Part shown: piece after piece, positions 4,666 through 53,067 of the stretch
How positions within the stretch are numbered: the stretch's first letter is position 1
Layout of the letters: every line of letters begins with the position of its first letter
NCBI RefSeq assembly: GCF_002370355.1
Contig: NZ_AP017929.1
Location: 248,001 to 312,000, forward strand
Direction: 5' to 3'
Length of the DNA stretch: 64,000 nt
DNA from: Latilactobacillus sakei subsp. sakei DSM 20017 = JCM 1157
Lineage (GTDB): Bacteria > Bacillota > Bacilli > Lactobacillales > Lactobacillaceae
Notes under the pieces: model-generated
What the model saw: the letters and a program-made list of their open reading frames with translations, nothing else
Databases searched by the model: none
What the model was told of the DNA's origin: nothing
Position numbers and translations under genes: made by a program

Positions 4666-5067
4666 TTACTGATCAGCTCTATTTTTTTCAACCTCTCTTA
4701 ATTCTTCTTCTGTGACTGCCATATGATCTTCATAGTGATCAACCTTCCAACGCAGATGGTCAATTGCCGTTTGAAGGTCATCGCGCTTTTCTTCCATAAT
4801 TGCGATTTGTTCGTTCAACAGTTTAAACTGCTGAGCTGTATTATCTTCTTGGGCATCAAATAAACGAATATATTCCTTAAGCGCTTCGATACTCATCCCG
4901 GCTGCACGCATTGTCTTTACGAAATTAATTCTTCTAATAATTCGGTCGTCAATCGCTCGCACGCCAACATCGTTGCGATCAATCGCTGGGATTAAGCCCT
5001 CTTTTTCATAATAACGAATGGTTGTCGCGGTAACGCCTGTTTGTTGACTCGCTTCTTTAATATTCAT
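4666..5067 (-). CDS. MerR-family transcriptional regulator
   Basis: A 133-residue regulator with the MerR N-terminal HTH (KEASQQTGVTATTIRYYEKEGLIPAIDR) and a C-terminal coiled coil (about 80-125). It has no C-terminal Cys cluster, so metal sensing of the classical type is unlikely; it resembles the AdhR/YwnB-linked MerR regulators. It is the last gene of an MFS-SDR-MerR operon, 14 nt after the reductase. The operon promoter at 7051-7081 has the stretched spacer typical of MerR activation. Confidence 0.9.
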   Translation of the reverse strand: MNIKEASQQTGVTATTIRYYEKEGLIPAIDRNDVGVRAIDDRIIRRINFVKTMRAAGMSIEALKEYIRLFDAQEDNTAQQFKLLNEQIAIMEEKRDDLQTAIDHLRWKVDHYEDHMAVTEEELREVEKNRADQ

Positions 5068-5081
5068 CTCACGTAACTCCT

Positions 5082-5681
5082 TTATTGTGGCCGGTTAATG
5101 CCGACACTTGTTCGTGCATATAATTGCTCGTCTTCAAGCACCCGCCGGACTAAATCAGCAATTGCCCAGTGAGAAACGTCATGCCCGCCAAAAGGTTCAT
5201 TGCGGCCAGTCACTTCATAATCATGGCTACCTTGATCAAACCAACCGGGTCGAACCACAGTATAATTCAAAGTACTCTCCGTGACAATATCCGCGGCTTT
5301 GCGATAGGCTTGCAACATCCCATTAGAGGCCAGATTACCCGAAGCACCAATGCTAGCTAGAATTTCATTATAAATCCCCATAGAAGCAATGAAAACCAGT
5401 TTATGAATCTGCAATTTAGTCATCGTTGTCACGACTGCCTTGGCTACTTGGGGCAATTGACCACTGACCGCTACAAAAAGAGCATCTTGATTACGCATTA
5501 CTTTTTCGAGTTGCACGAGATTGGTCGCGTCTCCTTGAACCCACGTGACGCGTTCTTGATTAGGCTGATTAACGTGGCGCGCTAATAAAGTGAGTTGCGC
5601 ATCCGTTTCGTCTAATAAATGTGCGGTAACTTCTGAACCAATTGAACCTGTTGCACCAATAATTAAGATTTTTTTCATCAT
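5082..5681 (-). CDS. NAD(P)-binding atypical SDR (NmrA/YwnB-like)
   Basis: A 199-residue Rossmann-fold protein with the dinucleotide motif GATGSIG at residues 9-15. It lacks a clear YxxxK active site, and has VVRPGWFD in the region used by the atypical SDR (NAD(P)H-binding, PF13460) family. The substrate is unknown; such proteins often respond to redox or electrophile stress alongside MerR regulators. Its start overlaps the MFS stop by 4 nt (ATGA), implying translational coupling. Confidence 0.85.
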   Translation of the reverse strand: MMKKILIIGATGSIGSEVTAHLLDETDAQLTLLARHVNQPNQERVTWVQGDATNLVQLEKVMRNQDALFVAVSGQLPQVAKAVVTTMTKLQIHKLVFIASMGIYNEILASIGASGNLASNGMLQAYRKAADIVTESTLNYTVVRPGWFDQGSHDYEVTGRNEPFGGHDVSHWAIADLVRRVLEDEQLYARTSVGINRPQ

Positions 5682-7007
5682 TCAGACTCCTTTTTAAGTG
5701 TTGGTAAAATTAAGCCGATCACCGCGAGCAACGCACCAATCAAGAGAACGGTCGCTAACCCCATTGCCACGTGGTAACTTGTTAGGCCGTTTTTAAAAGT
5801 CGCTGAAACAGCCACAATAAACGACATCCCGATTGAACCCCCAATTTGATGGACCATGTTGACCACGCCCGAAGCTGCGCCAGCATCTGCAGGTAACGTA
5901 TTGGCAACACCGGCGACCGTTAATGGACTGAGTGTTAAACCTTGTCCAATCCCCATCAAGATCATGGGAACCGCGATACCTAGCGCATAGCCAACTTGCT
6001 CTGAGAAAAAGCCTAAGGCACACATCCCAATTGCGGTCTTTGCAATCCCCACGGTTAGTAATTTCGTATTACCAAAGCGCGTTGTTAATTTTGAAACTTG
6101 CAAGGCAACGATGAAATTAACCACCGTTAAGGGGAAAAAGCCAATCCCTGCTTGAAGGGGCGTAAAACCTAAATGGGTTTGCATAATTTGAGGTGTCAAA
6201 AACCACATACTCAACATTGCACCCAGATAGAAGAAGCGCGCAATATAGCCCCCTAGTCGTTCGCGATCAGCAAACAAGCGCAATGGCATCATTGGTTGTT
6301 TCGTTCGTGCTTCTTGCCAGATAAACGACTGCTACTAACAATGCTAGTAAGCGACCTTGTTGGCCAACTAGGCTATAAACAAGTGCCGTCATCCCAATAA
6401 TCGACGTCAGTGCACCGATTAAATCTAATCGCTTAGCTTGTGTGGCTTGAGTGGTTGGTATGAAAAGAACCGTTAAACCAATCATAATAATCGCAATCGG
6501 TACGTTGATGAAAAAGCCGTCCCGCCAAGATAGTAGACTGGCAAAAATACCACCAATAACTAACCCAATACTAGCACCAATACCAGCTGTGTCACCATAA
6601 GCCGCAATCGCGCGTGTTCTTGCTTCGCCTGAAAAACTGTCCATTAAGAGTGCCAAAGTCGTTGGTGCCAAGATTGCTGAACCAATGCCTTGAAATGCCC
6701 GGGCTAAAATAATCATCACCGCACTATTGGCAAGGCCAACTAATAATGACCCTACCGCGAAAACTGTCAGTCCAATCATGAAAACCCGCTTACGGCCAAT
6801 AATATCACCAATACTACCGCCAAGTAATAACAAACCACCAAACGTTAGTGAGTAAGCATTTGTGACCCACGATAATGTTGTTTGACTTAAGTTTAATTCG
6901 GCGGCAATTTTAACCGTCCCTGTAAAAATAATTGAATTATCCAATAAAATCATAAAATAACTGATGAGGATAATCGCTAAAATAACCTTCTTGTTTGTCT
7001 TTTTCAT
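5678..7007 (-). pseudogene. MFS drug exporter (DHA2-like), frameshifted
   Basis: Two reading frames make one 14-helix-type MFS transporter. The N-terminal part (start 7007) carries helices 1-7, with the GRKRVF loop motif and DNSIIFTGTVKIA. It reads through about 6325 and then loses frame, ending at 6267. The C-terminal part resumes in a neighbouring frame around 6290 (FIWQEARTKQPMMPLR) and carries the remaining helices to 5678. The shift is near 6320-6330 in a run reading GTCGTTTATC on the coding strand; removing one T or adding two restores it. The N-terminal start is placed at the ATG preceded by GGAAG. Either the exporter is inactive or there is a base error. Confidence 0.85.
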
Positions 7008-7050
7008 TTTAATAACTTCCATTTCGTTTAATCTCTAATCAACAAAATGA

Positions 7051-7081
7051 AGTATAGACCTTAAAGTACACTTCAAGACAA
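7051..7081 (-). promoter_or_regulatory. MerR-type promoter with 19-bp spacer and dyad operator
   Basis: On the minus strand, a -35 TTGTCT (7081-7076) and a -10 TATACT (7056-7051) are separated by 19 bp. The spacer contains CTTGAAGTGTACTTTAAG (7077-7060), an inverted repeat with one mismatch. Long spacers with a central dyad are the hallmark of promoters activated by MerR proteins through DNA untwisting. The regulator is probably the MerR at 4666-5067. Confidence 0.8.
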
Positions 7082-7112
7082 GGGCTATTTTTAAATTAAT
7101 TAATTTATCATT

Positions 7113-7126
7113 TGATAACGTTTACA
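7113..7126. promoter_or_regulatory. cre-like catabolite-repression site upstream of the beta-glucoside operon
   Basis: TGATAACGTTTACA matches the CcpA cre consensus TGWAANCGNTNWCA at all but one position. It overlaps or adjoins a possible promoter (TTGATA at 7112, TATAGT at 7136, 18-bp spacer), so CcpA binding would block initiation when preferred sugars are present. Confidence 0.65.
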
Positions 7127-7154
7127 TAAATAGCTTATAGTAATCATATAAATA

Positions 7155-7183
7155 GCGTGTTACTGATTCGATCAGGCATGACC
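7155..7183 (+). promoter_or_regulatory. RAT antiterminator site 1
   Basis: This ribonucleic antiterminator target has GTGTTACTG, ATTCGATCAGGCAT and ACC in the order of the BglG/LicT RAT consensus. Its 3' end overlaps the left arm of the terminator at 7180-7231, so binding of the antiterminator excludes the terminator and permits expression of the antiterminator gene. Confidence 0.85.
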
Positions 7184-23491: not shown

Positions 23492-23878
23492 TTATTGTTG
23501 TCCAAGAAAACTACGACCCAAAGTTGGAACCGCCGTGCTTTGACGGTGCTCTTCCCATTCGGTAATATCGCGATTAACCTTCTTGTAGATCTTGCGACCT
23601 TCATCGGTAATTGTAATGTTGACTAAGCGTTGGTCCTGGCGTTCGCCACGTAGCTTTTCAATCATTTTTTTGTCTTGCAAGACATTTAACTTACGGGTCA
23701 CAATCGGACTCGATATTTTAAATACCATTGCCAACTCACTCGGTGATTGGGTACCTTCCATAACAAGTCTTTCTAAGTATAAAAATTGTTCTAAACTAAT
23801 ATCGTGTTTATGGCAAATCGCATTCAAGTTAGATGACACTGATCGGTATTCAATATACCACTGGCTCAAATAATCCAT
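23492..23878 (-). CDS. MarR-like regulator linked to WxL cluster 1
   Basis: A 128-residue winged-helix protein. The core reads QSPSELAMVF, SSPIVTRKLNVLQDKKMI and ERQDQRLVNITITDEG. It is clearly related to the copy at 35755-36159 (QSPSELA, PIVTRKLN, RLDQR) and more distantly to the broken copy at 46099-46527; all three lie beside WxL clusters. The start at 23878 has GGGAGGA upstream. Its gene follows the cluster 1 WxL gene; a palindrome at 23908-23924 lies just upstream and may be its operator. Confidence 0.85.
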   Translation of the reverse strand: MDYLSQWYIEYRSVSSNLNAICHKHDISLEQFLYLERLVMEGTQSPSELAMVFKISSPIVTRKLNVLQDKKMIEKLRGERQDQRLVNITITDEGRKIYKKVNRDITEWEEHRQSTAVPTLGRSFLGQQ

Positions 23879-23907
23879 GTCGCCACTTCCTCCCAAGTTA
23901 AACTATC

Positions 23908-23969: not shown

Positions 23970-24968
23970 TTATTTACCAGTTTCCAATGTCCATATTAAT
24001 GATGTCTTGTAGATTGCATTTGCAACTGCAGCATCTGTTGGCATAACTAATTGGATATCTTCTGGTGCCCATGCGAAGACGTTAGCACCTGTACCTGTAT
24101 CAGTATCTGCTTTACCTACTGTACCGGCTGCAGTATCCAACTTACTTGTTGGTGCTGCTAGTGATAATGAGAATGTATCTGTGATTGCATCTTTAGCAGT
24201 TTCATTGATTGCAACATCCCCAGCTGATGGTGCTGGCGCTGGATCGCCACCATCACCATCGCCATCATCACCGTCGGCTTTAGGAGTAGCCGGTGGTGTT
24301 GCGATACTTGCTTTATAATCAGCAAGATCTTTCGCAAAAGTCTTATCTTGATCTGAGTTTGTTAGTTCATAAACACCAGATGTCAATGCATATTTAGTAT
24401 GTTTGAATAAGAGGTTAGCACCATCAATTTCTTGACCACTTGTCGTTTTCAATGGTTCAGCAGTTGATACTTTTAAATCCCAATCCCCAGCTTTTTGAGT
24501 TGTGGCAGCATCCATGCCGTCTGCATGTTGACGTGTCACTTGTTTATCAACAACTGTGACCCATGCTTTGTTAGCAACTTCGTTAAGCGCTGTATCACTA
24601 CCAGCATTTAAGAGTGGTGTCTTGCTAGCAACTGAGTTGTCATATGACGCATGTTGGTTATTCTTGTCATTGGCGTAGTTTTTACCATCGGCTGTGAATG
24701 TTGTGAATGCTTTGTCAAAAGTTGCGTGGTTACCAAAATCTAAAACCTTAGGCACTTTTTGAAGGCGTAAGAAACCAGTATTCCCGTTATCGATGTTATC
24801 ACCGAATGAGATACCAACTTCTGTTTTGTCAGTTTGTGCTAATGGTGTCCCACCATTATCGATGACGCCACCTTCATGAGTTGCGGCAAATGTTGTTGTC
24901 GCTGGAGCCAAAATGCTTAATACTGTTGCGCCGGCTAATGCAGCACTTGTTAATTTCGTAAATTTCAT
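23970..24968 (-). CDS. WxL-domain surface protein (CscB-like), cluster 1
   Basis: A 332-residue secreted cell-wall protein. The signal peptide starts MKFTKLTSAALAG and ends near TTFAATHEGG. The C-terminal WxL domain holds both motifs, GDWDLKVST in the middle and SLIWTLETG at the end, which bind peptidoglycan in the family. An Asp/Gly/Pro-rich acidic linker (near residues 220-245) interrupts the domain. The start at 24968 has GGGAGGA upstream; the leader and ribosome site closely match the broken paralogue at 48511, showing duplication. It is the last structural gene of cluster 1. Confidence 0.92.
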   Translation of the reverse strand: MKFTKLTSAALAGATVLSILAPATTTFAATHEGGVIDNGGTPLAQTDKTEVGISFGDNIDNGNTGFLRLQKVPKVLDFGNHATFDKAFTTFTADGKNYANDKNNQHASYDNSVASKTPLLNAGSDTALNEVANKAWVTVVDKQVTRQHADGMDAATTQKAGDWDLKVSTAEPLKTTSGQEIDGANLLFKHTKYALTSGVYELTNSDQDKTFAKDLADYKASIATPPATPKADGDDGDGDGGDPAPAPSAGDVAINETAKDAITDTFSLSLAAPTSKLDTAAGTVGKADTDTGTGANVFAWAPEDIQLVMPTDAAVANAIYKTSLIWTLETGK

Positions 24969-25187
24969 ATGAAATTCCTCCCTAGAATTTATATAGATGC
25001 GATGCAAGCACCGCGGTTTTTTATAGCTTAATCTTGCGATTAAGATTATAAACAAAGTAAGTTAGTTTGCCTGATCAGCAATTGATTTTCCCACAAACCA
25101 ATTACTGCCAGGCGTCGTTTTTAAAATGACACTATGATTGATAACCATTAGTGATTCGGCCAGCGCAATCAGTCTTTATAGTGATTA

Positions 25188-25361
25188 CTAATTCATCGTA
25201 ATCGTTGTGAAACTATTGAAGTCTTGGTAAACCCGAATTGCAAAGTACGTGCTAACGATAAATGCAGCTGCTAACACAACGGTGAGTGCAATCATGCCCC
25301 ACTTAACCTTGCGATAATTGGTTTGATTAACATAACTCGTTATCCATAAGCGTTTCATCAT
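25188..25361 (-). CDS. Small single-pass membrane protein of the WxL cluster
   Basis: A 57-residue protein, MMKRLWITSYVN then a basic stretch, one hydrophobic segment (about 23-43, MIALTVVLAAAFIVSTYFAI) and a short tail ending TTITMN. Its ATG overlaps the TGA of the preceding DUF916 gene by 4 nt (ATGA), so it is translationally coupled. A homologue occupies the same place in cluster 4 (48574-48727, frameshifted), sharing a Y-x-A-I-x-x-Y-x-D core and the ITM end. Conservation of position supports a real gene. Function is unknown; it may be an assembly or anchoring factor for the complex. Confidence 0.8.
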   Translation of the reverse strand: MMKRLWITSYVNQTNYRKVKWGMIALTVVLAAAFIVSTYFAIRVYQDFNSFTTITMN

Positions 25362-26407
25362 TTTGCCTTCTTTCGTTTAATCATCACCCAAGTACCAATC
25401 ACGATAATGATTAGCGCGGTGATCCCAGCAGCAAGCCATCGTAGGAATTGTTGTTGTTCTTTTTGGTAAGTGTTCTTTTGGATAAATTCAATCTTATTGT
25501 TCTTAATCCGCACATAGCTCGTTTGTTTTTTCTGATACTCGTCGTTTTGATTCTCAACGGTTAAGCGATAATAACCATCCACCAATCGCTTGCCCCCTAA
25601 GGCTAAGTTATCGGTAAATTTAGAACTAGGCGCAATCTTCATATCCTTTTGGTACTTTTCATATTTAAAGAAGGCTACTTTCTGATTTACTAACGTCGTC
25701 TTCAAATTCATTTGCTTGAGATACATCGGCATCTGATTTTCAAAATGGAATTTAATTGCCGTTGCTCGATCACCAGATTTTTGAACATCGATCTGATCTA
25801 TCTTAAGCGGTTGAACATCCTTCTTCGTTAACCTACGACCATTAAGCAGCACTCCGATTGTATAAACATACTCGTTTTGAACAGCCGCCTGACTAGCTTC
25901 TTCATCGCTCGCTAAGATTTGAATCGCTGATGCTTTAATCCCACTAAAGGCAGTTGGTTTATCAATCTTAATCGGGATATCGATGCTTTCTTGTGGTTTA
26001 ATCATCAGACTCTTAGGGACCTCAATTACTTGACTCCCAGCTTGTTTCAACAAGCCCTTTTCAGGTTGACGCGCCTTTGTATAGTCGATTGATCCATTAT
26101 TATTGGTTGCGGCATCTACGACCTTAATTTTGAGTCTAATTGTCTGGTTGGTTGGATTAAAAACATTAATCTTTTCCACACGTTGTTGCTTCTTTTGCTG
26201 AGGCAAATTGAAGTAACCGAGATATTTCCCCCCAATATTATCATTCGGTAATTTAGGTAAAATCGTAATAGTTACCGGATCTTCATCTGGCGACTTATAC
26301 TTGGCCTTTTTCCCTTCGACACTCATCGGTTGTAACAATAAACCGGCCGTTATGAAACAAATAGCAATGATTAGCCAACTATTCTTCCGTCCGTTAAGCC
26401 ATGACAT
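25358..26407 (-). CDS. DUF916/DUF3324 WxL-interacting membrane protein, cluster 1 copy 2
   Basis: A 349-residue CscA-type protein. It has a signal segment (about 12-32), an extracellular DUF916 peptidoglycan-binding domain (LGYFNLPQQKKQQ to about 190), a DUF3324 host-binding domain (about 190-310; LLNGRRLTKKDVQPL, then SSKFTDNLALGGKRLVDGYYRL), one C-terminal membrane helix (about 326-343) and a basic KRKKAK tail inside. Such proteins partner WxL proteins at the surface. It starts 1 nt after the stop of the first copy. The cluster 4 paralogue (46511-47563) has a stop right after LNGR. Confidence 0.92.
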   Translation of the reverse strand: MSWLNGRKNSWLIIAICFITAGLLLQPMSVEGKKAKYKSPDEDPVTITILPKLPNDNIGGKYLGYFNLPQQKKQQRVEKINVFNPTNQTIRLKIKVVDAATNNNGSIDYTKARQPEKGLLKQAGSQVIEVPKSLMIKPQESIDIPIKIDKPTAFSGIKASAIQILASDEEASQAAVQNEYVYTIGVLLNGRRLTKKDVQPLKIDQIDVQKSGDRATAIKFHFENQMPMYLKQMNLKTTLVNQKVAFFKYEKYQKDMKIAPSSKFTDNLALGGKRLVDGYYRLTVENQNDEYQKKQTSYVRIKNNKIEFIQKNTYQKEQQQFLRWLAAGITALIIIVIGTWVMIKRKKAK

Positions 26408-26408
26408 A

Positions 26409-27437
26409 TTATTTACTTCCCGTTAATAGTAATTTCAGTAACTCAACAAGTGAAATCAGCATCAACCCACCAGTTGCCATACTAATGTAGAACCACTTAT
26501 TGATTGGTTTGCGCATAATCTTATCATTGATATTATCAGCGGCTTTCTTATCCACTTTGATATTCTTAATGAATTTCCAAGTCATTGGTAACTTGTTCCA
26601 GTCATTTTCACCTTTGACCTGAACTTGAACCTTATATTTACCTGGTTTCAATTCATCAAATTGCCATTGAACCGGTAATGTCACAATTGAGTTTGGTGCG
26701 ATTTTACTATTATTAACGCTAAAAATCCGTTTTTGTGAAAAGACACCTTGTTTGGTGATAACGGCCTTCATTTGCACATTTTGGAGCATCATTGGTTGCG
26801 TGTTCCGAAGATTAATTGACATTGCCGCATGTTTTTGGAAAAGCATTGGTTTAACGCTGTCGTACTTCAACTCTGGATAAACCTTGTAGTGAGCGCCACG
26901 TAGGGCAATCCCCATTGAGTAGGCGTAATTACTAGAAACATGAGAATCTTTACTCTTACTTGTCGTTTCTTCAAGGAAATGCCAGTCCCCATAGACTAAC
27001 CCGCGGAAACCATCACTTGGCATCTTAATCGTTGCCGAAACTGTTCTTGTTTCTAATGGGTTAAGGGTGATGACACGATCCTTCTTATCAACATGCCCAA
27101 TACTTGTTAGTGGATATTTCAAGCTTTCATCCAAACCCTTAGCTGTAGAAACGAAGTTAACGCCCCCACCGACTTGCGTCATACTATTTCTGAGTTCTGA
27201 TTTAACCTTCACTTTATGATCCGTATAATTCTTAACCTTCATCATAATGACTTGTTTCTTACCCGGTTGGATCTGCATATCGAAGTAATTAACGTCATTA
27301 TTAACTTGCGTTTCGACCGGAATTCTTTGGATTTCAAAATCAGATTGTTCATCAGTCGCCGCTGATACAGAATGCATTTGTAAGCCTAAGCCGACTAAAC
27401 CGGCTAAAAGGCCAAATGCTATGCTTTTCATTTTCAC
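26409..27437 (-). CDS. DUF916/DUF3324 WxL-interacting membrane protein, cluster 1 copy 1
   Basis: A 342-residue paralogue of the next gene. It has a signal peptide (about 1-26, ending SVSAA), DUF916 (VNYFDMQIQPGKKQVI onward), DUF3324 (about 185-300; ALRGAHYKVYPELKYD) and a C-terminal helix (about 316-335) with little cytoplasmic tail. It is closest to 48730-49776 in cluster 4 (ALRGxxYxVYPELKY is shared as LRGKPYEIYPELKYQ), so the two clusters have matching pairs of partners. The start lies 32 nt after the large WxL gene; all are one operon. Confidence 0.92.
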   Translation of the reverse strand: MKMKSIAFGLLAGLVGLGLQMHSVSAATDEQSDFEIQRIPVETQVNNDVNYFDMQIQPGKKQVIMMKVKNYTDHKVKVKSELRNSMTQVGGGVNFVSTAKGLDESLKYPLTSIGHVDKKDRVITLNPLETRTVSATIKMPSDGFRGLVYGDWHFLEETTSKSKDSHVSSNYAYSMGIALRGAHYKVYPELKYDSVKPMLFQKHAAMSINLRNTQPMMLQNVQMKAVITKQGVFSQKRIFSVNNSKIAPNSIVTLPVQWQFDELKPGKYKVQVQVKGENDWNKLPMTWKFIKNIKVDKKAADNINDKIMRKPINKWFYISMATGGLMLISLVELLKLLLTGSK

Positions 27438-27469: not shown

Positions 27470-30400
27470 TTATGGGGCAACCGTTAGATTCCATAATAAG
27501 GTTGTCGAATAAGTCGTGTTATATCGCTTCGTTGCTCCTGGTACAAACAATCCAATACTGTAATCCGCTGTTTTTTCATCACCAAATTGATACTTATAAA
27601 CTGCATATCCAGGGCGATCATACGTTACTCTATTATCAGTACCGTCATCTGCAACAGAGCCATTAGTGTTATCCTTGTGCAAGAATTGGCCCTCTTTTTT
27701 ATGTGTTACAAGGCGTCTTGGTGTGCCATTAGGAACTAGATTGAAATGATCTAGGGATTCAGTCTTATCACCTTTACCTGAACCTTCCGTCGATTTCCCT
27801 TCAGAATGCGTCATCAAAAATTTCGCATTACTAAATTGAAGTCGAGCACCTTCTAATTCAACGTGTTTACTTGGTGTATTAGAATCACCCTTGTAATCGC
27901 TTTGGAACTGACCAACCTGTTTAACATCTAGCGCCCAACTATCAATTCCCCAATAATCAGAGATTTCAACACTATATGGTGTTTTCTGATATTTCATTGA
28001 TTTTGGTGCAGGATCTTTAGGTGCTGGCATATAGAAAGTACGGTCAATCTTAGTATCGTAGAACTTACCAAAATACATTTTCTTAGGTAACGCTGTGAAT
28101 CCTAAACGCGCCTTTTCGTAGTAAATTTTGTAGGTTACCTCATCCATTGCAATCGCGGGGTCAATATCCTGAAGTAATTTTTCAGGCGCTGTATTGGCAT
28201 CAATTGTATATTCGACAGGTGTATAACCTTCTATATACGCTGGTCGAATCTTATTTACATCCTTACTTCCATTAAGATCACCTTCAATAATTGTTCCGGT
28301 TGAAACGTGTTCACCAATTTTACCCTGAACAGTGATTGGATCATTAATAGCTTTTCCAGTTGCACGGTCAATATATTCGAAGTGCACTTTACTGTCTTTT
28401 GGCTTCACCGTTTCCATGCTAACTTCAGATTCACTTGCTGTAGTACTTGTATCAGGCAATTCACTAAGCGTTGTTACCTTATTGCTTAAAATATCACCTT
28501 CAATAGCGGTATCCATAACCTTCGCTTTGTAAGTAATCGTCGCGGAATCTCCTGGCTCCATTTGTTTTAACGTCATGCTCCCTAAACTATCAAACTCCGC
28601 TGTCGTCCCATCAGAATAATCAACTTTAATCGGCTTCTTACCAGTTTCTTTAACCAATTCCAATTTCTTATCCATTTCATCGAGTAGAGCTGTTGTTTTC
28701 ATAGTGCTACTCTTCTCATCAACCGTGAACTTAAGCTTAAATCCTAGAACATCGCGTGCATGAACTTGCGTTGTATCCTGATATTCAGTTTCTTTTTCAC
28801 TTTCATTACGAACCGTTTTATCAATAACAGTTGGTGCCAATTCTACTGGAATATCTGTCTGCGCTGACGCCTTGTTATAAAGTGCTTTACCGCCTTGAGA
28901 TACCATGCTTGGCTGTAAGGTCTTATTAGAGGCCTTACTATTAATTTTCGTGTCAACCGATACTGTGGTCCATTCGTTATCCGCTAAATCTTTAGGTAAC
29001 TTATAAGTTATTTTATGAGTAGAGGCGTTATAACTCTTAACATCAACATTAACTTCCGAACCATCATTCAATTTAGCTTTCATAGTTTTAGGATCTACTG
29101 TTAATCCTGCTGGAATCGTTGCGGTCATTGTGATGTTATCCCACACACTCTTGAATCCAATATTATGAGTTGCAAAATTTAACGTTATCTCATCCAAGAC
29201 ATGATTCTTTTTATCAGTAGTCGTATTATTTGTGTATGACACTACGGCTTCCGGCACAACCACACCCTCATTAAAGAACCCAACATCATTACGATAATGA
29301 TAGACCTTAGTAGCATCTAAAGTTTGTGGTTCCCACATCGCGCCAAGCGCAGAATCACCAGCACCAGCAACAAGACTTCCTTCATCAACCGTAAACGGAC
29401 TCAAATCCGCTCCACCCAGTGACGATCCATAATAGGTATAATCTGCCATCCCATATTTTGATTGCGTATCCATCTGTGCGCCCGCGGTTTGGTAATGGAT
29501 ACCTTGATAATGATCCGGTCCATCGGCTATTTTATCTTGCATAATGAATTTGTAACCTTTTTCCGTCATGTACATCCCATTTCGGTTACCTTGTGCATAG
29601 ATATCAGGTCCTTGATTATCATCAAGTTCCGTATCTTCTGCGTAGAAAATTCTGACGGTTTCATTACCTGTACCAACGTCTTGAAGATACATTTCTTGTT
29701 TAATGACGGGCTGTTCCTCTGATGGGCGTAAGACGAATTCCACTTTTAGTTTGACACCTTTTACAGTTGCGATTCCGACAGCTTTCAAGGCTGGCTTATT
29801 ATAACTCGTGGTTCCGTCATAAATTTTAAAACCTTTATCCATTAAATAAGGAATAGATGTCTCAGCTAAAATTTGTTTTTGATTACTTGTTTCCGTTGTT
29901 AAAGCGTAACCATACGAGGTAGTCAGTCCTTGATTTCCTTTATGGAACCCATTAATAATTTTTCCATTTGCTAATATGAACACGTTTGTCTTAGGATCCA
30001 CATAATCACGTGTCGTAGGCGCTGGATCATTAGAATTATATTCACTCTTAAGTGACCCATCAGAATTCCCAAAGGTATATCCCAACTTAACGCCTGGATC
30101 ATCTAATGGTAAATATTCAATGGTATTTTGTGGCACTTCCTTCCAATCCGTAATACCATCATTGAACCCATCTGGTGAAACCCCTACACTTTTACTTGTG
30201 CTTTTACCGTTAACTAATTGTTCACTAGCTTCCTTAACACTCTCGATACTAGGTAACTTTCCTGATGAACTCGATTGAACAAGAACCGATTCGGTTGACT
30301 TACTGCTGGATTTCGAACTTGTACTCGACTCCGCCTCATCACTCGAACTCGAAGTTGAACTCGAAGTTGAATTCGATACTGATTTAGAGCTAACAATTTC

Positions 30401-30568
30401 ACTAGTGTCTTTTGTTGAACTTGAGTTAGATTTTAATTTTGATTCTGACTTTAGACTTGTACTTGCCTTAGGAACATCTTGTTGCGCTGCGATTACATTA
30501 CTGCTCTGAATAATAAACAAGCACACTAACATAACGCCTAACATTATACACGTCGTTAACTTCTTCAT
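27470..30568 (-). CDS. Large WxL surface protein (CscC-like) with MucBP-like domain, cluster 1
   Basis: A 1032-residue secreted protein and the only intact large one here. It has a signal peptide (1-28), a Ser-rich low-complexity stretch (about 35-100), a large beta-rich N-terminal region (about 130-520), a DUF11/isopeptide-like domain (about 610-745; TVIDKTVRNESEKE), a MucBP-like domain (about 755-845; VHFEYIDRATGKAIND), and a C-terminal WxL domain with DSWALDVKQ and LLWNLTVAP. The gene heads cluster 1, preceded by about 940 bp of non-coding DNA. The architecture suggests binding of host or plant polymers while held to peptidoglycan by WxL. Confidence 0.9.
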   Translation of the reverse strand: MKKLTTCIMLGVMLVCLFIIQSSNVIAAQQDVPKASTSLKSESKLKSNSSSTKDTSEIVSSKSVSNSTSSSTSSSSDEAESSTSSKSSSKSTESVLVQSSSSGKLPSIESVKEASEQLVNGKSTSKSVGVSPDGFNDGITDWKEVPQNTIEYLPLDDPGVKLGYTFGNSDGSLKSEYNSNDPAPTTRDYVDPKTNVFILANGKIINGFHKGNQGLTTSYGYALTTETSNQKQILAETSIPYLMDKGFKIYDGTTSYNKPALKAVGIATVKGVKLKVEFVLRPSEEQPVIKQEMYLQDVGTGNETVRIFYAEDTELDDNQGPDIYAQGNRNGMYMTEKGYKFIMQDKIADGPDHYQGIHYQTAGAQMDTQSKYGMADYTYYGSSLGGADLSPFTVDEGSLVAGAGDSALGAMWEPQTLDATKVYHYRNDVGFFNEGVVVPEAVVSYTNNTTTDKKNHVLDEITLNFATHNIGFKSVWDNITMTATIPAGLTVDPKTMKAKLNDGSEVNVDVKSYNASTHKITYKLPKDLADNEWTTVSVDTKINSKASNKTLQPSMVSQGGKALYNKASAQTDIPVELAPTVIDKTVRNESEKETEYQDTTQVHARDVLGFKLKFTVDEKSSTMKTTALLDEMDKKLELVKETGKKPIKVDYSDGTTAEFDSLGSMTLKQMEPGDSATITYKAKVMDTAIEGDILSNKVTTLSELPDTSTTASESEVSMETVKPKDSKVHFEYIDRATGKAINDPITVQGKIGEHVSTGTIIEGDLNGSKDVNKIRPAYIEGYTPVEYTIDANTAPEKLLQDIDPAIAMDEVTYKIYYEKARLGFTALPKKMYFGKFYDTKIDRTFYMPAPKDPAPKSMKYQKTPYSVEISDYWGIDSWALDVKQVGQFQSDYKGDSNTPSKHVELEGARLQFSNAKFLMTHSEGKSTEGSGKGDKTESLDHFNLVPNGTPRRLVTHKKEGQFLHKDNTNGSVADDGTDNRVTYDRPGYAVYKYQFGDEKTADYSIGLFVPGATKRYNTTYSTTLLWNLTVAP

Positions 30569-35754: not shown

Positions 35755-36159
35755 TTAGCCAACTAGAAAGAAACGTTTAAAAGTCGCAGTTTCTGTGGCC
35801 TGTTGTTGTTGGTACCAACTTGCTAATTCTGCAGATAATTGGTCGTAGAGTACTTTTCCTTGTTCTGTCATTGAGATACTAACTACTCGCTGATCTAATC
35901 GTGTCCCACGAGTCTTTTTAATCAAACCTTTATCCTTTAACGTATTGAGCTTTCGAGTCACAATAGGACCCGATGTATTAAACTTAACCGCCAATTCGCT
36001 AGGTGATTGCGTCCCATATTGCACAAGTTGTTCTAAAAATAAGAACTGCTCAAACGTCATACAGCGCGTCCGACACAAACTATTTAATTGCTTCGAAATA
36101 ACACTCGTTTCAAAATACCATTGGCTTAATGCTAATACCTGTTGCTTTTTATTTTTCAA
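35755..36159 (-). CDS. MarR-like regulator linked to WxL cluster 2
   Basis: A 134-residue winged-helix protein, paralogue of 23492-23878 with shared QSPSELA, PIVTRKLN and DQR segments. It follows the broken large WxL gene by 71 bp on the same strand and is ended by a strong terminator. A 23-nt dyad at 36201-36223 lies just upstream and is the probable operator. With its partner WxL gene broken, it may now act on cluster 1, whose upstream region shares the TGCATAAA word. Confidence 0.85.
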   Translation of the reverse strand: MKNKKQQVLALSQWYFETSVISKQLNSLCRTRCMTFEQFLFLEQLVQYGTQSPSELAVKFNTSGPIVTRKLNTLKDKGLIKKTRGTRLDQRVVSISMTEQGKVLYDQLSAELASWYQQQQATETATFKRFFLVG

Positions 36160-36200
36160 TTTAACTTTCCTCTATTCTCTTTCTAAAAATCTATGTATCG

Positions 36201-40904: not shown

Positions 40905-41969
40905 CTATTGATTGCTGTCTCGTTTACTGGCTGCTAATTCACTTTCTAATAACTTGATTCGACGTTGTTTCCGCCAATAAATCACAATGATTAAGATTAA
41001 TAACAATACAATGCCGGTAATGATTAGACTTAGACCTAACCATGAATCGTCTTCTTTAATCACCGCTTTTTGGTTATAGTGCCGTGCTTGTTTTTTAGTA
41101 ATCGTAAAGTCTTTGGTAAATTGCCAGTGTTGTTGTTTAGACGTTACTACGACCTGTGCCGTATACCGACCTGGTCTAAAGGCCGTTTCACCAATCCTAA
41201 CCGGCAACTCGTAAACTGAATTAGGTGCCATCTGACCGTCAGATGTTTTTTGTGTATAAACTGCTTTGGCTTGCCCTTGCTTTTTAATTGTGACCTTCGT
41301 TGTCACCTTATTTAAAAAGGCGGCAGTTTGGTTATTCAACGGGATACTGATGACGTTGCGATTATTAATTTGGCGCGTCGTTATCTTACCCAGACTCATT
41401 TTATTTTTTGTTAATTCTTGTTGCCCATGTAAGACCATTGCGATTGTATAGGCGTATTGGTTCTTAACACCCATACTACTGTTAGTTTTTACTTTGTCAT
41501 CGGTCACCTTTTTAACAAAATTCAACCCACCCACGAGTTCGCCATCAAACGCCGCTTTGGGCATCTTAATTTGATAAGCCACGGGTTTCACTTCGCCCGG
41601 CTGTAATTGTATTTTATTTTGATCAGTCGTGACTACTTTTTCAATATTAGCAGGTAGTCCCCAACTTTTATTTTGTTTAAAAGCCTTATATTCAACAACC
41701 CCGTTGGTATTCGTAGTTGCTTTGGCCACTGAGGTTTCAACAGTGATGGGTGTTTGACTCGTACTCTTAACATTCACCGTCACCGTTGTGGCTTGGTTTG
41801 GCGCTAGTTTTAAATCAAAATAGGTTACTTTTTGATTTAACTGTTGTTTAGAGGCGACCGGAATCACTTCAAAGCCGGCGTTATTAGCGGCGTCGGCTAC
41901 TTTAACATTAACGAACACGCTCATGAATAAAACGAGTCCCCAGATCATTAAACGATATTTGCGTTTCAT
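40905..41969 (-). CDS. DUF916/DUF3324 WxL-interacting membrane protein, cluster 3
   Basis: A 354-residue CscA-type protein with a signal peptide (about 1-27), DUF916 domain (TYFDLKLAPNQATTVTVNVK), DUF3324 domain (about 185-295; VLHGQQELTKNKMSLGKI, ending AFRPGRYTAQVVV), a C-terminal helix (about 312-333) and a basic tail (YWRKQRRIKLLESEL). It is the only such partner in cluster 3. It lies 88 bp after the WxL gene and 18 bp before the Mga-like gene. Confidence 0.92.
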   Translation of the reverse strand: MKRKYRLMIWGLVLFMSVFVNVKVADAANNAGFEVIPVASKQQLNQKVTYFDLKLAPNQATTVTVNVKSTSQTPITVETSVAKATTNTNGVVEYKAFKQNKSWGLPANIEKVVTTDQNKIQLQPGEVKPVAYQIKMPKAAFDGELVGGLNFVKKVTDDKVKTNSSMGVKNQYAYTIAMVLHGQQELTKNKMSLGKITTRQINNRNVISIPLNNQTAAFLNKVTTKVTIKKQGQAKAVYTQKTSDGQMAPNSVYELPVRIGETAFRPGRYTAQVVVTSKQQHWQFTKDFTITKKQARHYNQKAVIKEDDSWLGLSLIITGIVLLLILIIVIYWRKQRRIKLLESELAASKRDSNQ

Positions 41970-42649: not shown

Positions 42650-42952
42650 TTAAAAATTCCCCCGTCTTTGTTTGAATAACCCTAAACTGCCGATCAGTAA
42701 AACAATGCCCACAATCGTGCTTAACCCGACTGAGCTTGTCCCGGTCTGTGGCAATCTAGCTTGCTGTTTTGTTTCGGTTTGTATTGGCGCTTGCTTGTGT
42801 GGTTGACCTGTTTCGTAAAAGCCAACTCGTGCAACACTCTTAGTCGCTGTTTGTGCGTTAGCACTTGTATGAGTTGGGTTTACAACGATTAGGCCGCTTC
42901 CGATGATCAACATTAGCACCACAAATTTTGATTTGTTTTTTAACCAGCGCAA
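42650..42952 (-). CDS. Small LPxTG-anchored protein (CscD-like), cluster 3
   Basis: A 100-residue precursor with a signal segment (about 8-30), a short mature part (VARVGFYETGQPHKQ) and a sortase signal LPQTG followed by a hydrophobic helix and RR-rich tail (KQRRGNF). Small LPxTG partners are a regular member of csc clusters. It would be linked to the wall by sortase A; no sortase is encoded nearby. Confidence 0.9.
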   Translation of the reverse strand: MRWLKNKSKFVVLMLIIGSGLIVVNPTHTSANAQTATKSVARVGFYETGQPHKQAPIQTETKQQARLPQTGTSSVGLSTIVGIVLLIGSLGLFKQRRGNF

Positions 42953-43083
42953 CTGCTAATCACCCCCACTCTTTTTACATCTCAACTTTTGACTATCGCA
43001 ATCATTAACCTTAATGACACTATAGCATAAGCGCTTTTCTTAATTTTTTTTCTAATTTAAATCAGCATTTGAATTTCCGAAAA

Positions 43084-46098: not shown

Positions 46099-46527
46099 TT
46101 ATTTTTTTAGTATTTGATTTGAAATGACGATGAATTGTGCCATTAACGCATCGCTTCGCGTACTATATGGCAACAAAATCGCATCATATTCATCATTCAG
46201 AGTAGCGACGATTGCCTTGCCCTCTGCCGTGACCTACAAACTCGTTATACGTTGATCTTCATCTTTTAGGTTATATAATTTTTTAATCTTGCCATTCCGA
46301 AACAGAACCGTTAGCTTACGAGACATCGCGGGCCGTGAAATGGCAAAGGCCTTTGCTAACAATGATGGTTCATTACAATCATTTTCAACAATTTGTTTCA
46401 AAATTAAGTATTGGCTAAAGCTCACACCATGCCGTTTCGCAATTGTATCCAAGCCATTTTCTAACCTTGTTAATAATTGGTAACCTTCTAAATATTGATT
46501 TTTTTCACTCTTAATCATCGTGCTCAT
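46099..46527 (-). pseudogene. MarR-like regulator, cluster 4, with in-frame TAG
   Basis: A 142-codon winged-helix regulator gene. The core reads QYLILKQIVENDCNEPSLLA, ISRPAMSRKLTVLF and DEDQRITSL, then a TAG at 46234-46236, then VTAEGKAIVATLNDEY to a TAA at 46099. MarR proteins run DQR-xxxL-T-x-x-G-K at this point, so the stop replaces one residue (probably Gln, CAG). The truncated product lacks the C-terminal dimerisation helix. The start overlaps the preceding DUF916 gene by 17 nt. Confidence 0.87.
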
Positions 46528-47563
46528 CTCTCTTCATATGCTTTACCTTCAAAATCCGATACCCGCCAATAACGCCCATTAAGACCATCACAAAACCACC
46601 CAATAATAGGAGATTGCGATACTTCAAATATTGATCGTTATTTTGGTTGATGTAGCGGGCCTGGCCCTTACTAATTGCGATATTCTTATGAATAATCTGT
46701 TGCTGATGCGCCGTTTTAATTGTTAGCGTCATCCGATAAACACCCGCTACTAACCGCTTGCCACCTAGTGGGACATCTTCATAGAAGCGAGAATTCGGGG
46801 CAATTTTACGATTTGATTTCTGATCCTGATAACGAATCAATGACCACTGTTGGTTTTGTAAATCAACTTTAACGGTCGCCGACTTCAGATAAGCTGGATT
46901 GGGATTAGCAATCGCAACACTAATTGCTGCCCGCTTTTGCTTCACAAAGCGCGTCTTGATTTCAGCCGAACGTAGCGGTTGCCGGTCTTTGACCGTTAAT
47001 TATCGTCCATTTAAGATTAAGGTAATCGCGTAAACATAATGATTTTCAACAGCATTATGTTTAGCCAACTGATTGGTGCTTAAATTAATCGCCGTCGCTT
47101 TTTGCCCTTTAAAACCTTTGGCAGGAGCTTGAATTGTAACCTTTAATCGTTTTGTTTCGTTTGGTTGTAATTTTGTTGCTCGTGGTACTTTAACTAATTG
47201 ACTCCCCGGTTGTTTTAATAACTGCCGATCAATCGGGTTGGCCCCCAGATAATCAACTGTCGCATTATCATTAGTTGTCGCATCTTTGACGCGACCATAA
47301 ATCGTCAACGGTTGGGCGGTTGGGTTAAAGACTTTTAAAAATACGGTGCGTTGTTGCCCACGCTTCAATTTTAGATTAAAGTACCCTAAACGCTTACAAC
47401 CCAGATTATCCTTCGGTAATTCAGGTCTTAACATGAACGTCGCCTTGGGCTCAGCAGGAATAGCTAACCCCTCACTCTTAGCGAAGACTGGATTACTCGT
47501 TTGAACGGTTAATAAATCCACTAAGATCAAGCAAAACCACAACATATTCAAACGTTTAAACAT
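46511..47563 (-). pseudogene. DUF916/DUF3324 WxL-interacting protein, cluster 4 copy 2, with in-frame TAA
   Basis: One frame of 350 codons with a TAA at 47000-47002. The N-terminal 187 residues carry the signal peptide and DUF916 (LGYFNLKLKRGQQRTVFLKV) and stop at AITLILNGR. The continuation LTVKDRQPLRSAEI matches LTKKDVQPLKIDQI of the intact paralogue 25358-26407, followed by DUF3324, a C-terminal helix (about 310-328) and a charged tail. The truncated form would be secreted without its membrane anchor. Confidence 0.92.
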
Positions 47564-47654
47564 ACCAGCCTTCCTTTCTAATCACTTATGTATAAAACCA
47601 AGTGCCCTCCCAAGATAGCGCTTGGTTTCATGATGTTTTAGTTGATATGTCCGC

Positions 47655-48511
47655 TTAGATTGTTGTGTTTAATGTCCATGTTAAACCAGCGTGATATTCA
47701 CCAGTTGCCACATCGTTTGAACCGTTTAAAGCTAAACGAATATCGCTTGGGTTCCAACCAAAGACGTTAGCGCCATCGCCAGCATCTTTAGCAGCTGTTC
47801 CAACCACTTTTTCTTCATTTGGTGTACTCAAGTTCAAGCTAACTGATTTTGCGTATGTTGCATCTGTTGTCCCAGCGCTGTATAACCATCATTATCTTGA
47901 TCTTGGTTTGTTAAACCATAGATATCAGCTGTCCGACCGTATTTTGTATTACCAAATACTAAGTTAGCGTCTGCAATTGTGTGTCCGCCAGCTTTTAGAC
48001 CATCGCCATCAGCTGAAACAGTTAACTTCCAGTCACCAGCTGTATTAGCCTTTGGTGTAGCAGCTGCTAATTCTGGGTTTTCAACTTGTTTATCAACAAC
48101 TGTTGCCCAAGCTGTCCCTTGAACGGCCTTTAAATTAGCGTCACTCGTTGTTAATGTTTCTGTTTTATTGCTATCTTGTTGATCGTATGAAGCGTGTGTA
48201 TCATTACCAACAACGCCTAAATTAGCGCCCGTTGCATCAAAGTTTGTGTGTGCTGCGTCATACTTAGCATGGTTCCCAAAATCTAATGTCTTTGGTACCA
48301 TTTGTAATCTTAAGTAGCCTGAATTGCCGTTATCATGTGTATCACCAAATGAAATGCCAGCATCTGTTGTGTCAGTCATTGGTAACTTAGTACCACCATT
48401 AGCTGCTGCATCGTCTTTTGGTGTTGCAGCACTAGCGATAGTTGCAGGTGCTAGAATTGCTAATAATGTTGATGCTGTTAAAACTGTGCTTGTTAATTTT
48501 GTGAATTTCAT
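47655..48511 (-). pseudogene. WxL-domain surface protein (CscB-like), cluster 4, frameshifted
   Basis: The leader MKFTKLTSTVLTAS and the body (GDTHDNGNSGYLRLQMVP, GDWKLTVSADG) are close to the cluster 1 WxL protein. The first frame ends at 47834. The last WxL part (KSVSLNLSTPNEE, NVFGWNPSDIRL, LTWTLNTTI) is in a neighbouring frame. The shift lies around 47870-47890 within the GGTTATACAGCGCTGGG stretch on the coding strand. Without the last motif the product should not bind the wall normally. Confidence 0.9.
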
Positions 48512-48573
48512 GTGAAATTCCTCCCTTTTTTAACTATATTTTCTTTCGCTGCCCACCCATCCCCCGTAACTTG

Positions 48574-48727
48574 TTACATTGTGATAATCGTTATTTTTTG
48601 TAAGTCTAAATAAAATTTAATGGCCAGGTAGAGGGTCAATACAAACCAAATTGTTAAGCCCCCCTGATACTATGAAGGTCGCCAAGCGAGCCTTTTTAGG
48701 GCCCCATTTTGTAATTAAGCGTTGCAC
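48574..48727 (-). pseudogene. Small single-pass membrane protein, cluster 4, frameshifted in a G run
   Basis: A GTG at 48727 (AAGGGGG 8 nt upstream, 2 nt past the DUF916 stop) opens QRLITKWGPKKARLATFIVS. A run of six G follows. With five G the frame continues as GGLTIWFVLTLYLAIKFYLD and LQKITIITM to a TAA at 48574. That product has one membrane helix and ends like the intact 57-residue protein at 25188-25361 (ITM end, Y-x-A-I-x-x-Y-x-D core). As sequenced, the frame runs to an early stop. Coding status is inferred from the paralogue. Confidence 0.7.
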
Positions 48728-48729
48728 GT

Positions 48730-49776
48730 TTAAAGCCCCCTTGTTAATTTCAATACCCGATAAACAAACCAGAATGAAACAAGCATCAAAATGCCACTAG
48801 CAGTCGCGACATACGCCCATTTATTAACGGGTTTCTTCACTGATGCTTGATTAATCTTATCGGCTTGTTGTTGATTGATCGTGATTTTCTTTCTAAAGTG
48901 CCAGCTCATTGGTAATTGGTTCCAATAACTATTACCTTTAACACTGATGGAAATGTTATAACGACCGGGTTTCAATCGATCGAACGCCCATGAGATTGGC
49001 ACAGTCCACTGCGAATTAGGTGCAACATCAACGCTGTCTGTTTCATAAACACGCTTGTCTTTAAAGAAGCCATTCTTGTAAACGACCGCCTTCACCTTGG
49101 CATTCTTGATGGCCATTGGTTTCGTATTATTCAACTGAATCCCTAACGCTGGATGCCCGTTTCTGACGGTTGGGTTAACCCCTTGATATTTCAACTCTGG
49201 GTAAATCTCGTAAGGCTTACCGCGCAAAACGATCCCCATATTGTAGGCATAACTCCCGGAGACATTCGAATGATTGTCAGTTTCTTTTTGACCGTATTCA
49301 ATAAAATGCCAAGCGCCGTAAATCATCCCTTTGGTTTGTTCAGATGGCATCGTAATCGTCGCACTGACCTTTTTGACCTCATTAGGGCCTAGCGTAATCA
49401 CTCGATCGGCCCGATGAACTTTAGCAACATCCATCAATGTATGCGATGTTTCTTTGATAATGCCATCTTTCGTAGGGCGATAAATAATCCCCCCACCTTG
49501 TTGCGTCAAACTATTATCAATCTCTGAATGAACTTTAATATTTTTATCACTGAAATTATGAACCAAAACCTGAATGGTTTCTTTTTTACCCGGTTCAATT
49601 CCTAAATCAAAAAAGCGATTTTCTTGATCCACTTGGCGGTTCGATTTAACTTTTTCAACTTCAAAATCGATATGTTCCTGTGCTGCTGAAACCGGCTGGT
49701 TGCTAGCCAATAATAGCCAGCCGAACAGCCCAACTGCTAACCCTGTTGTCCATTTTCTTAATCGCATTTTTATCAC
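48730..49776 (-). CDS. DUF916/DUF3324 WxL-interacting membrane protein, cluster 4 copy 1
   Basis: A 348-residue CscA-type protein and the one intact gene of cluster 4. It has a signal peptide (about 1-31, ending PVSAA), DUF916 (FFDLGIEPGKKETIQVLVHN), DUF3324 (about 185-300; VLRGKPYEIYPELKYQG), and a C-terminal helix (about 318-340). It is closest to 26409-27437. It lies 64 bp after the large gene and directly before the small membrane protein. With its WxL partners broken, it may be orphaned or serve the cluster 1 proteins. Confidence 0.92.
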   Translation of the reverse strand: MIKMRLRKWTTGLAVGLFGWLLLASNQPVSAAQEHIDFEVEKVKSNRQVDQENRFFDLGIEPGKKETIQVLVHNFSDKNIKVHSEIDNSLTQQGGGIIYRPTKDGIIKETSHTLMDVAKVHRADRVITLGPNEVKKVSATITMPSEQTKGMIYGAWHFIEYGQKETDNHSNVSGSYAYNMGIVLRGKPYEIYPELKYQGVNPTVRNGHPALGIQLNNTKPMAIKNAKVKAVVYKNGFFKDKRVYETDSVDVAPNSQWTVPISWAFDRLKPGRYNISISVKGNSYWNQLPMSWHFRKKITINQQQADKINQASVKKPVNKWAYVATASGILMLVSFWFVYRVLKLTRGL

Positions 49777-49840
49777 TCAACCCTATTTTTAATTGCCAAG
49801 CTATTCTGATTTGATTGTTCCTCCCAAGAAACAAGTGTTA

Positions 49841-52800: not shown

Positions 52801-53067
52801 CGTCGCTTTTTCACCTGACGTTGCTGGCGTTATGGTTTGTGTTTCCGCATCTGAAGCCGCCTTTTTTTGAATGACACTATTTGATTGTTTAGTTGGTGTT
52901 GAACCTGAAATAGCGTCCTGAGCTATTTTAGTGATCGTTTCCGAAGACGCATTAGCAGGCGCTTCAACAGCATTTACTTCAGTCGTCATTACCGAACTCG
53001 CTAACATGTTTACCATTAATAATAAAGTCATGCATAATTTAAATAGCCTCAATACGTACCACCTCAA
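49841..53067 (-). pseudogene. Large BspA-repeat WxL surface protein, cluster 4, frameshifted
   Basis: The 785-residue N-terminal frame has a signal peptide (about 1-33), a Thr/Gln-rich linker, and from about residue 150 to 530 a long array of about 23-residue BspA-type (DUF285) repeats of the form LDVSNWDTSxVTxMxxTFxx. A DUF11-like domain follows (TITKLVRNVTADGNNAPF) and the frame ends at 50710. The remaining 290 residues (MucBP-like IRYVDLDEDLSQPASAG, WxL motifs QNWQLQVSQ and LTWSLSVGP) are in another frame from about 50715; adding one C in the AACCAGATAACGTG stretch joins them. The N-terminal product would be secreted but unanchored. Confidence 0.9.

Follow-up and report, generated by a model that had tools for sequence, protein, structure and literature searches.

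A small gene for a predicted single-helix membrane protein marks a distinct type of WxL cluster in Lactobacillaceae

The window analyzed here is a stretch of 64,000 nucleotides from Latilactobacillus sakei subsp. sakei DSM 20017 = JCM 1157 (contig NZ_AP017929.1, positions 248,001 to 312,000), and it contains several clusters of genes for WxL proteins and their WxLIP partners (DUF916-DUF3324-TM). Cluster 2 is transcribed in the order large WxL, WxLIP1, WxLIP2, a small gene, and small WxL (Table 1). The small gene consists of 57 codons read from an ATG, which overlaps the stop of the WxLIP2 gene by 4 nt, as had been stated in the initial annotation, and the sequence AAGAAGG lies immediately 5' of this start codon. 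The listed frame of the small WxL protein starts with a TTG at 25055, but the likely start is an ATG at 24968, 219 nt past the small gene. A promoter and terminator scan of cluster 2 gave no hit on the coding strand in the gap that separates the small gene from the small WxL gene, and a scan of the window for TTNCCNSARAC gave 2 matches, compared to the 1.94 expected.

Cluster 3 was different: it contained one WxLIP (40905-41969) and a CscD-type protein, and was without the small gene. Genes for MarR/SarA-type regulators were a recurrent neighbor, with one located downstream of all four small-gene clusters in this genome and after eight of nine other Latilactobacillus clusters inspected (the exception was L071); none was found at 15 small-gene clusters of other genera. 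A further copy adjoined a large WxL gene at 36231, and the 97-aa copy at 46234 fell under the Pfam cut-off.

Table 1. Coordinates of the small gene, its remnant, and associated genes (window positions unless a locus is named).
Feature	Position	Strand	Remark
Small gene, 57-aa protein with one predicted membrane helix	25188..25361	-	tail ends NSFTTITMN
WxLIP2 (DUF916-DUF3324-TM), cluster 2	25358..26407	-	directly upstream of small gene; in WxLIP2 clade
WxLIP1 (DUF916-DUF3324-TM), cluster 2	26409..27437	-	in WxLIP1 clade whose loci carry small gene
Large WxL protein, cluster 2	27470..30568	-	upstream end of cluster
Small WxL protein, cluster 2	23970..24968	-	next gene after small gene; diagnostic segment GNTGFLRLQKVPKVLDFGNH
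Small-gene remnant, cluster 4	48574..48727	-	frame-broken; N part 48617-48727, C part ends 48574
WxLIP1, cluster 4	48730..49776	-	intact
Small WxL protein, cluster 4	47655..48511	-	two frames (47834-48511, 47655-47837); same diagnostic segment
WxLIP2, cluster 4	46511..47563	-	two frames
CscD-type short LPQTG protein, cluster 3	42650..42955	-	contrast to small-gene clusters
MarR/SarA-type regulator gene	23492-23896	-	
MarR/SarA-type regulator gene	46234-46527	-	
MarR/SarA-type regulator gene	35758-36171	-	
MarR/SarA-type regulator gene	L004 7534-7911		
MarR/SarA-type regulator gene	L005 5219-5635		

The initial annotation had also pointed to a counterpart of the small gene at the equivalent place in cluster 4. 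Such a counterpart exists, and the Y-x-A-I-x-x-Y-x-D core and the ITM ending are present in both clusters, but no single open frame spans it: the N-terminal 36 aa and the C-terminal part are read in different frames. The equivalence of place was likewise partial, in that the small WxL gene is next downstream in both clusters, but the small gene follows WxLIP2 in cluster 2 and WxLIP1 in cluster 4. Across cluster 4 (46511-53067, minus strand) the small gene, small WxL, WxLIP2, and large WxL were each spread over more than one frame, the large WxL over two overlapping frames, and WxLIP1 was intact. In the close relative L135 every one of these genes, including the large WxL, is a single frame, and elsewhere in the genus two more genomes (L039 and L034) have the small gene in its cluster-4 version as one intact frame. 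Because the small WxL, WxLIP2, and large WxL genes are also broken and their relatives in L135 are not, decay of the cluster or assembly errors are likelier than a programmed shift.

The frame at 25188-25361 is a real gene. A chance frame was ruled out by paralogs in the same genome, homologs in the family, and dN/dS. Two further intact paralogs were found in the 1.94 Mb genome (46% and 44% identity, E 9.1e-10 and 4.1e-7), each immediately preceded by a tandem pair of WxLIP genes and followed by a small WxL gene. This genome encodes 12 WxLIP domains, eight of which belong to the four clusters with the small gene or its remnant; the other four (cluster 3 and L125-L127) had no small gene adjoining. 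Five of the six genomes of the genus contained the small gene, in up to six copies, and the sixth (G003) was without it and had two WxLIPs. Short hydrophobic frames downstream of a WxLIP did occur by chance at two of 30 control loci (L095 and L107), but these were 50 or 30 aa long and dissimilar.

Purifying selection was assessed by the Nei-Gojobori method over 44 codons in 16 pairs. dN/dS ranged from 0 to 0.47, so the constraint whose lack the initial annotation had named as a refutation was found. Two pairs had synonymous changes only (5 and 4), ten had ratios from 0.07 to 0.47, three were saturated, and one was identical. One orthologous pair had 3.0 nonsynonymous versus 10.0 synonymous changes, while a ratio of 0.32 in another pair was based on two changes, and the highest ratio fell inside the cluster-2 group.

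Convincing short-frame homologs (50-91 aa, E ≤ 3e-9) were found in 21 of the 397 Lactobacillaceae genomes sampled, representing 6 of 40 genera; one of the 21, G079, has an internal stop. At E ≤ 0.01, 89 of the 397 genomes matched, but most of the matches that were not short frames were inside longer frames and were discounted. These weak profile matches, many in frames of approximately 384 aa, were treated as false positives; three such frames were inspected and had one common sequence, which we take to resemble a conjugation-type cell-wall hydrolase. There was also a weak match in a 54-aa frame of G119 (E 0.001). The broader profile A3 (E ≤ 1e-4) matched 7 of 395 genomes in the order sample, all of them Lactobacillaceae, and 1 of 398 in the class sample, which was the window's own. 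No genome outside the Lactobacillaceae matched at that threshold in either sample; as these are samples of genomes, rare cases may occur elsewhere. The plasmid collection and a PDB profile search each gave no matches. Searches of 24 members against Pfam, NCBIfam, and PHROG gave scattered matches, at most two of the 24 members per family and none consistent, the best being to a transporter model (E 0.0006). The small protein contains neither DUF916 nor DUF3324, so it is outside the WxLIP family.

The neighborhood of the small gene was examined in named genomes by a scan with six aligned WxLIP1 sequences, each taken from a cluster that has the small gene or its remnant; such a scan reaches that clade first, and it returned 23 loci of the WxLIP1 type. 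These were from Latilactobacillus (fuchuensis, graminis, and fragifolii), Lacticaseibacillus (8 species), Lapidilactobacillus (2), Loigolactobacillus (2), and Lactobacillus sp. ESL0246. In 22 of the 23 loci a homologous frame lay directly after a WxLIP, and the remaining locus (L085) ends at a contig edge; the absence of such frames that the initial annotation had named as a refutation was thus not observed. The next frame was a small WxL in 20 of the 22; it was broken in L068, and none was recognized in L073. Over all 39 small-gene matches, 36 had an upstream WxLIP on the same strand within 2.1 kb. Two of the other three also have a WxLIP directly upstream (L048/L144 and L086, an identical frame), and the third lies 117 bases from a contig end. 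Of 27 small genes, 25 had a start, as picked by rule, between -29 and +29 nt relative to the stop of the WxLIP gene, the exceptions being L083 (+83) and L088 (no start in range). In L088 of Lapidilactobacillus mulanensis (7023-7181), one of these 22 loci, the tail of the small gene is interrupted by an in-frame stop, and G079 contains the same frame; this perhaps represents a recent loss. Locus L086 of Latilactobacillus fuchuensis (4923-5988) has a WxLIP1 in several frames beside an intact WxLIP2 and small gene. Lactobacillus sp. ESL0246 contains three loci of the form WxLIP1 - small gene - WxL (L079, L081, and L087) with no visible WxLIP2; the available portion of a paper on lactobacilli of the honeybee gut reports a region with DUF916 and WxL genes and does not mention the small gene.

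The small gene was absent from all 30 WxLIP loci taken from control genomes of other genera. It is therefore not a general WxL component; the clusters that carry it fall in one WxLIP1 clade. The narrower claim, of a conserved and uncharacterized component of WxL clusters, was borne out by the family distribution, the constant WxLIP and WxL neighbors, and the low dN/dS.

A phylogenetic tree of 104 WxLIP proteins (369 columns; 7 of 111 frames were left out for being under 300 or over 449 aa) was inferred by a quick method with a simple model, and 13 of its rows, several WxLIP2 among them, were flagged for odd letter composition. In this tree the WxLIPs of small-gene clusters grouped into two clades, a WxLIP1 clade of 27 rows and a WxLIP2 clade of 23, both supported by an SH-aLRT value of 100. 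The label "none" changed 4 times on the tree, versus 34.5 in shuffles, and the exceptions were at a contig edge (L085), at a locus border (L133), and in clusters with a fragmented WxLIP1 (L086 and L144). Of the 28 clusters with the small gene, 24 had two WxLIPs; the four with no visible WxLIP2 were L068, L079, L081, and L087. In L066, L135, and window cluster 4, WxLIP2 lay downstream of the WxL gene. In other words, the presence of WxLIP2 and the gene order varied, while WxLIP1 and the small gene remained together. A requirement for two WxLIPs was also considered and rejected: the four clusters without a visible WxLIP2 keep the small gene with one WxLIP, and L143, which has two tandem WxLIPs from other clades, is without it.

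The small WxL proteins encoded after the small gene had their own diagnostic segment, GYLRLQxVPxxLDFG[NS]H, mostly in the form GNTGYLRLQxVPxxLDFGNH and in ESL0246 as GxGYLRLQxVPxVLDFGSH. The pattern matched 25 of 26 small WxL frames (L068 and L073, in which no unbroken WxL frame was recognized, were not counted), and the 26th (L072) contained ANTGFLRL by eye. The pattern had no match in a comparison set of 16 further WxL frames, which included two pieces of large WxL proteins. A CscD-type protein was found in none of the 28 small-gene clusters compared to 9 of 19 other loci (window cluster 3, L125-L134, and L136-L143), a contrast with a Fisher p of 7e-5 that ignores kinship, several of the 19 being near copies of each other. 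LPxTG calls rejected by eye were those in L066 (the 206-aa C-terminal end of another surface protein approximately 1.9 kb upstream), L068 (two chance frames), and L121 and L122 (frames of membrane enzymes). The absence of CscD may reflect one or a few ancestral events. The small gene thus marks a distinct type of WxL cluster, with a WxLIP1 of one clade, usually a WxLIP2 of another, and a small WxL protein with the diagnostic segment.

The small protein was 50-57 residues long in the 24 diverse rows aligned, and columns 13-56 were free of gaps. The N-terminal part averaged 4.5 K+R and 0.1 D+E, and the hydrophobic part that follows, 20 residues long, had a mean Kyte-Doolittle value of 2.45. Column 37 was S or T in 20 of the 24 rows, and column 41 was A in 17, T in 6, and G in 1. 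Conservation was high in the tail: Y45 in 15 rows, N49 in 17, an aromatic residue at column 51 in 21, T53 in 18, T55 in 20, and M or L at column 56 in 22. The chain ended 0-2 residues past column 56. No LPxTG-type sorting motif was visible in the aligned members, and no catalytic motif was recognized in the small protein. An AlphaFold2 monomer run with 18 rows from the window and the named loci gave one helix over residues 6-56, with a pLDDT of approximately 95 over residues 21-40. The pLDDT at the C-terminus was approximately 59, with the helix drawn through the tail and no ordered tail structure. The model supports a single helix and not a strand. By the positive-inside rule the basic end of such a protein stays cytoplasmic; because the N-terminus is basic and the tail is fixed, the charge and hydropathy of the alignment suggest a topology with the N-terminus inside, one helix, and a conserved tail of approximately 15 residues outside.

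Small single-helix subunits that stabilize larger membrane complexes, and are encoded together with them by overlapping genes, are known in CydX and KdpF. By analogy, the small protein is similar in its single helix, its size, its co-encoding, and its gene overlap, but the complex that it partners would lie on the outer face and would not be a membrane enzyme.

Pairwise distances between small proteins were compared to those of their cluster partners in 21 of the 28 small-gene clusters. Five were left out because they were broken (L068, L086, L088, L144, and window cluster 4), one because of the distance limit (L083), and one because it had no WxL (L073). The correlation with WxLIP1 was 0.91, and 0.83 as a partial correlation given WxL; with WxL it was 0.68 and the partial correlation was -0.11. 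In the set of 16 clusters with a WxLIP2, the values for WxLIP1 (0.90), WxLIP2 (0.88), and WxL (0.83) were close together. These correlations suggest that WxLIP1 is the most likely partner, although the r values are no proof of binding because the genes of one operon share their history.

The identification of the small protein as a component of a distinct type of WxL (Csc) complex is well supported. Its role as an assembly or sorting factor, suggested in the initial annotation, is kept here as a hypothesis. The reading that we favor, with about an even chance of being right, is that the small protein is a membrane-side companion of WxLIP1 that holds or assembles the complex at the membrane face. 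The small gene would be co-translated with the WxLIP gene just upstream, and its product would insert with the N-terminus in the cytoplasm, span the membrane once, and expose a tail of near-constant length. The helix would lie beside the anchor of WxLIP1, and the conserved tail may dock on WxLIP1 or on the WxL protein held by it. In this way the small protein could keep or guide the WxLIP1-WxL complex at the membrane before or during its binding to peptidoglycan, and in these clusters it may stand in as an anchor for CscD, the short LPxTG protein. In Enterococcus faecalis, according to the accessible portion of the report, the WxL protein ElrA is lost when its partner genes elrB-E are deleted, while its transcript persists (PMC4522977); therefore, partner-dependent stability has a precedent in such clusters.

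Several other roles were weighed against the companion role. The helix might act by itself, as an accessory subunit that stabilizes WxLIP anchors by helix-helix contact within the bilayer, leaving the tail incidental. The conserved small or polar residues at columns 37 and 41 would fit this, as would the small size, the overlap with the WxLIP gene, and the two anchors provided by the 24 clusters with two WxLIPs, but the tail is among the best conserved parts of the protein (T55, T53, N49) and the four single-WxLIP clusters keep the small gene, which makes it a rather unlikely explanation. Alternatively, the helix might be a signal peptide cut near column 41, releasing the last 13-16 residues as a signal or for incorporation into the wall. 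The basic N-terminus, the hydrophobic stretch, and the A at column 41 are all consistent with a secreted-peptide precursor. Signal peptidase I, however, normally does not accept T at -1, the residue at column 41 in a quarter of the rows; in addition, the frame belongs to a structural operon, and the 24 rows matched no consistent peptide-signaling family (two matched a Phr-type N-terminus, best E 0.068), so that we consider such a precursor very improbable. Least credible is a relic of CscD with little function, in which part of the signal-peptide region of a former short LPxTG protein is all that is left. It would account for the lack of CscD in the small-gene clusters and for the similar slot, as CscD-type genes lie just downstream of a WxLIP in four of the 30 control loci (L100, L115, L116, and L117), yet the low dN/dS, the strict length, and the conserved end speak for function, and no likeness to the CscD sequence was noticed by inspection.

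The tail might instead be a membrane-tethered strand donor that temporarily fills the open edge of the WxL or WxLIP1 sandwich until WxLIP1 takes over, so that assembly would include an exchange of strands. It is rich in T, I, V, and aromatic residues, with fixed spacing and a free C-terminus, and the small gene sits between the WxLIP and WxL genes; furthermore, WxLIP is predicted to bind WxL by strand addition, a hairpin strand of WxLIP completing a gap in the WxL sandwich in the AlphaFold2 model given in the available part of PMC10599100. Against this, the monomer model had no strand, and the divergence of the small protein did not track that of WxL once WxLIP1 was allowed for. Strand donation is therefore unlikely. 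Also doubtful is the broader proposal of a membrane-tethered assembly factor whose strand-forming tail hands WxL to WxLIP1 on the outer membrane face and which replaces CscD, with WxLIP anchored in the bacterium's own membrane, contrary to the proposal, in the same available part of PMC10599100, that the WxLIP helix enters host membranes. If it were true, these clusters would encode a separate class of WxL surface machine.

The clusters described here are similar to WxL/Csc clusters in the accessible text of Siezen 2006 (PMC1534035) and Hassan 2023 (PMC10599100), in that a large WxL, a WxLIP, and a small WxL are found in one cluster. They differ in the additional 50-57-aa membrane gene, in usually having two WxLIPs of separate clades, in the N-terminal segment of the small WxL, and in the lack of CscD in the 28 clusters examined. 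CscA-D were defined in 2006, with CscD as an LPxTG protein of 90-140 residues (PMC1534035, as far as available). Both CscD and the small protein are short products of WxL clusters, but the small protein lacks an LPxTG motif, is roughly half as large as CscD, and has a polar tail after its hydrophobic stretch rather than a short basic one. A membrane component of 50-57 residues is not mentioned in the accessible portions of PMC10599100, PMC1534035, PMC4522977, PMC9772566, PMC3792948, PMC4449606, and PMC13413889. The small gene is apparently an undescribed component that defines a sub-type of WxL cluster.

That a membrane protein under selection accompanies one WxLIP clade, even where there is no second WxLIP, favors a site of assembly or holding in the bacterial membrane. 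The small gene offers a small, deletable handle on WxL assembly in food lactobacilli, and it divides WxL clusters into types that can be tested, one with the small membrane protein and some with anchors of the CscD type.
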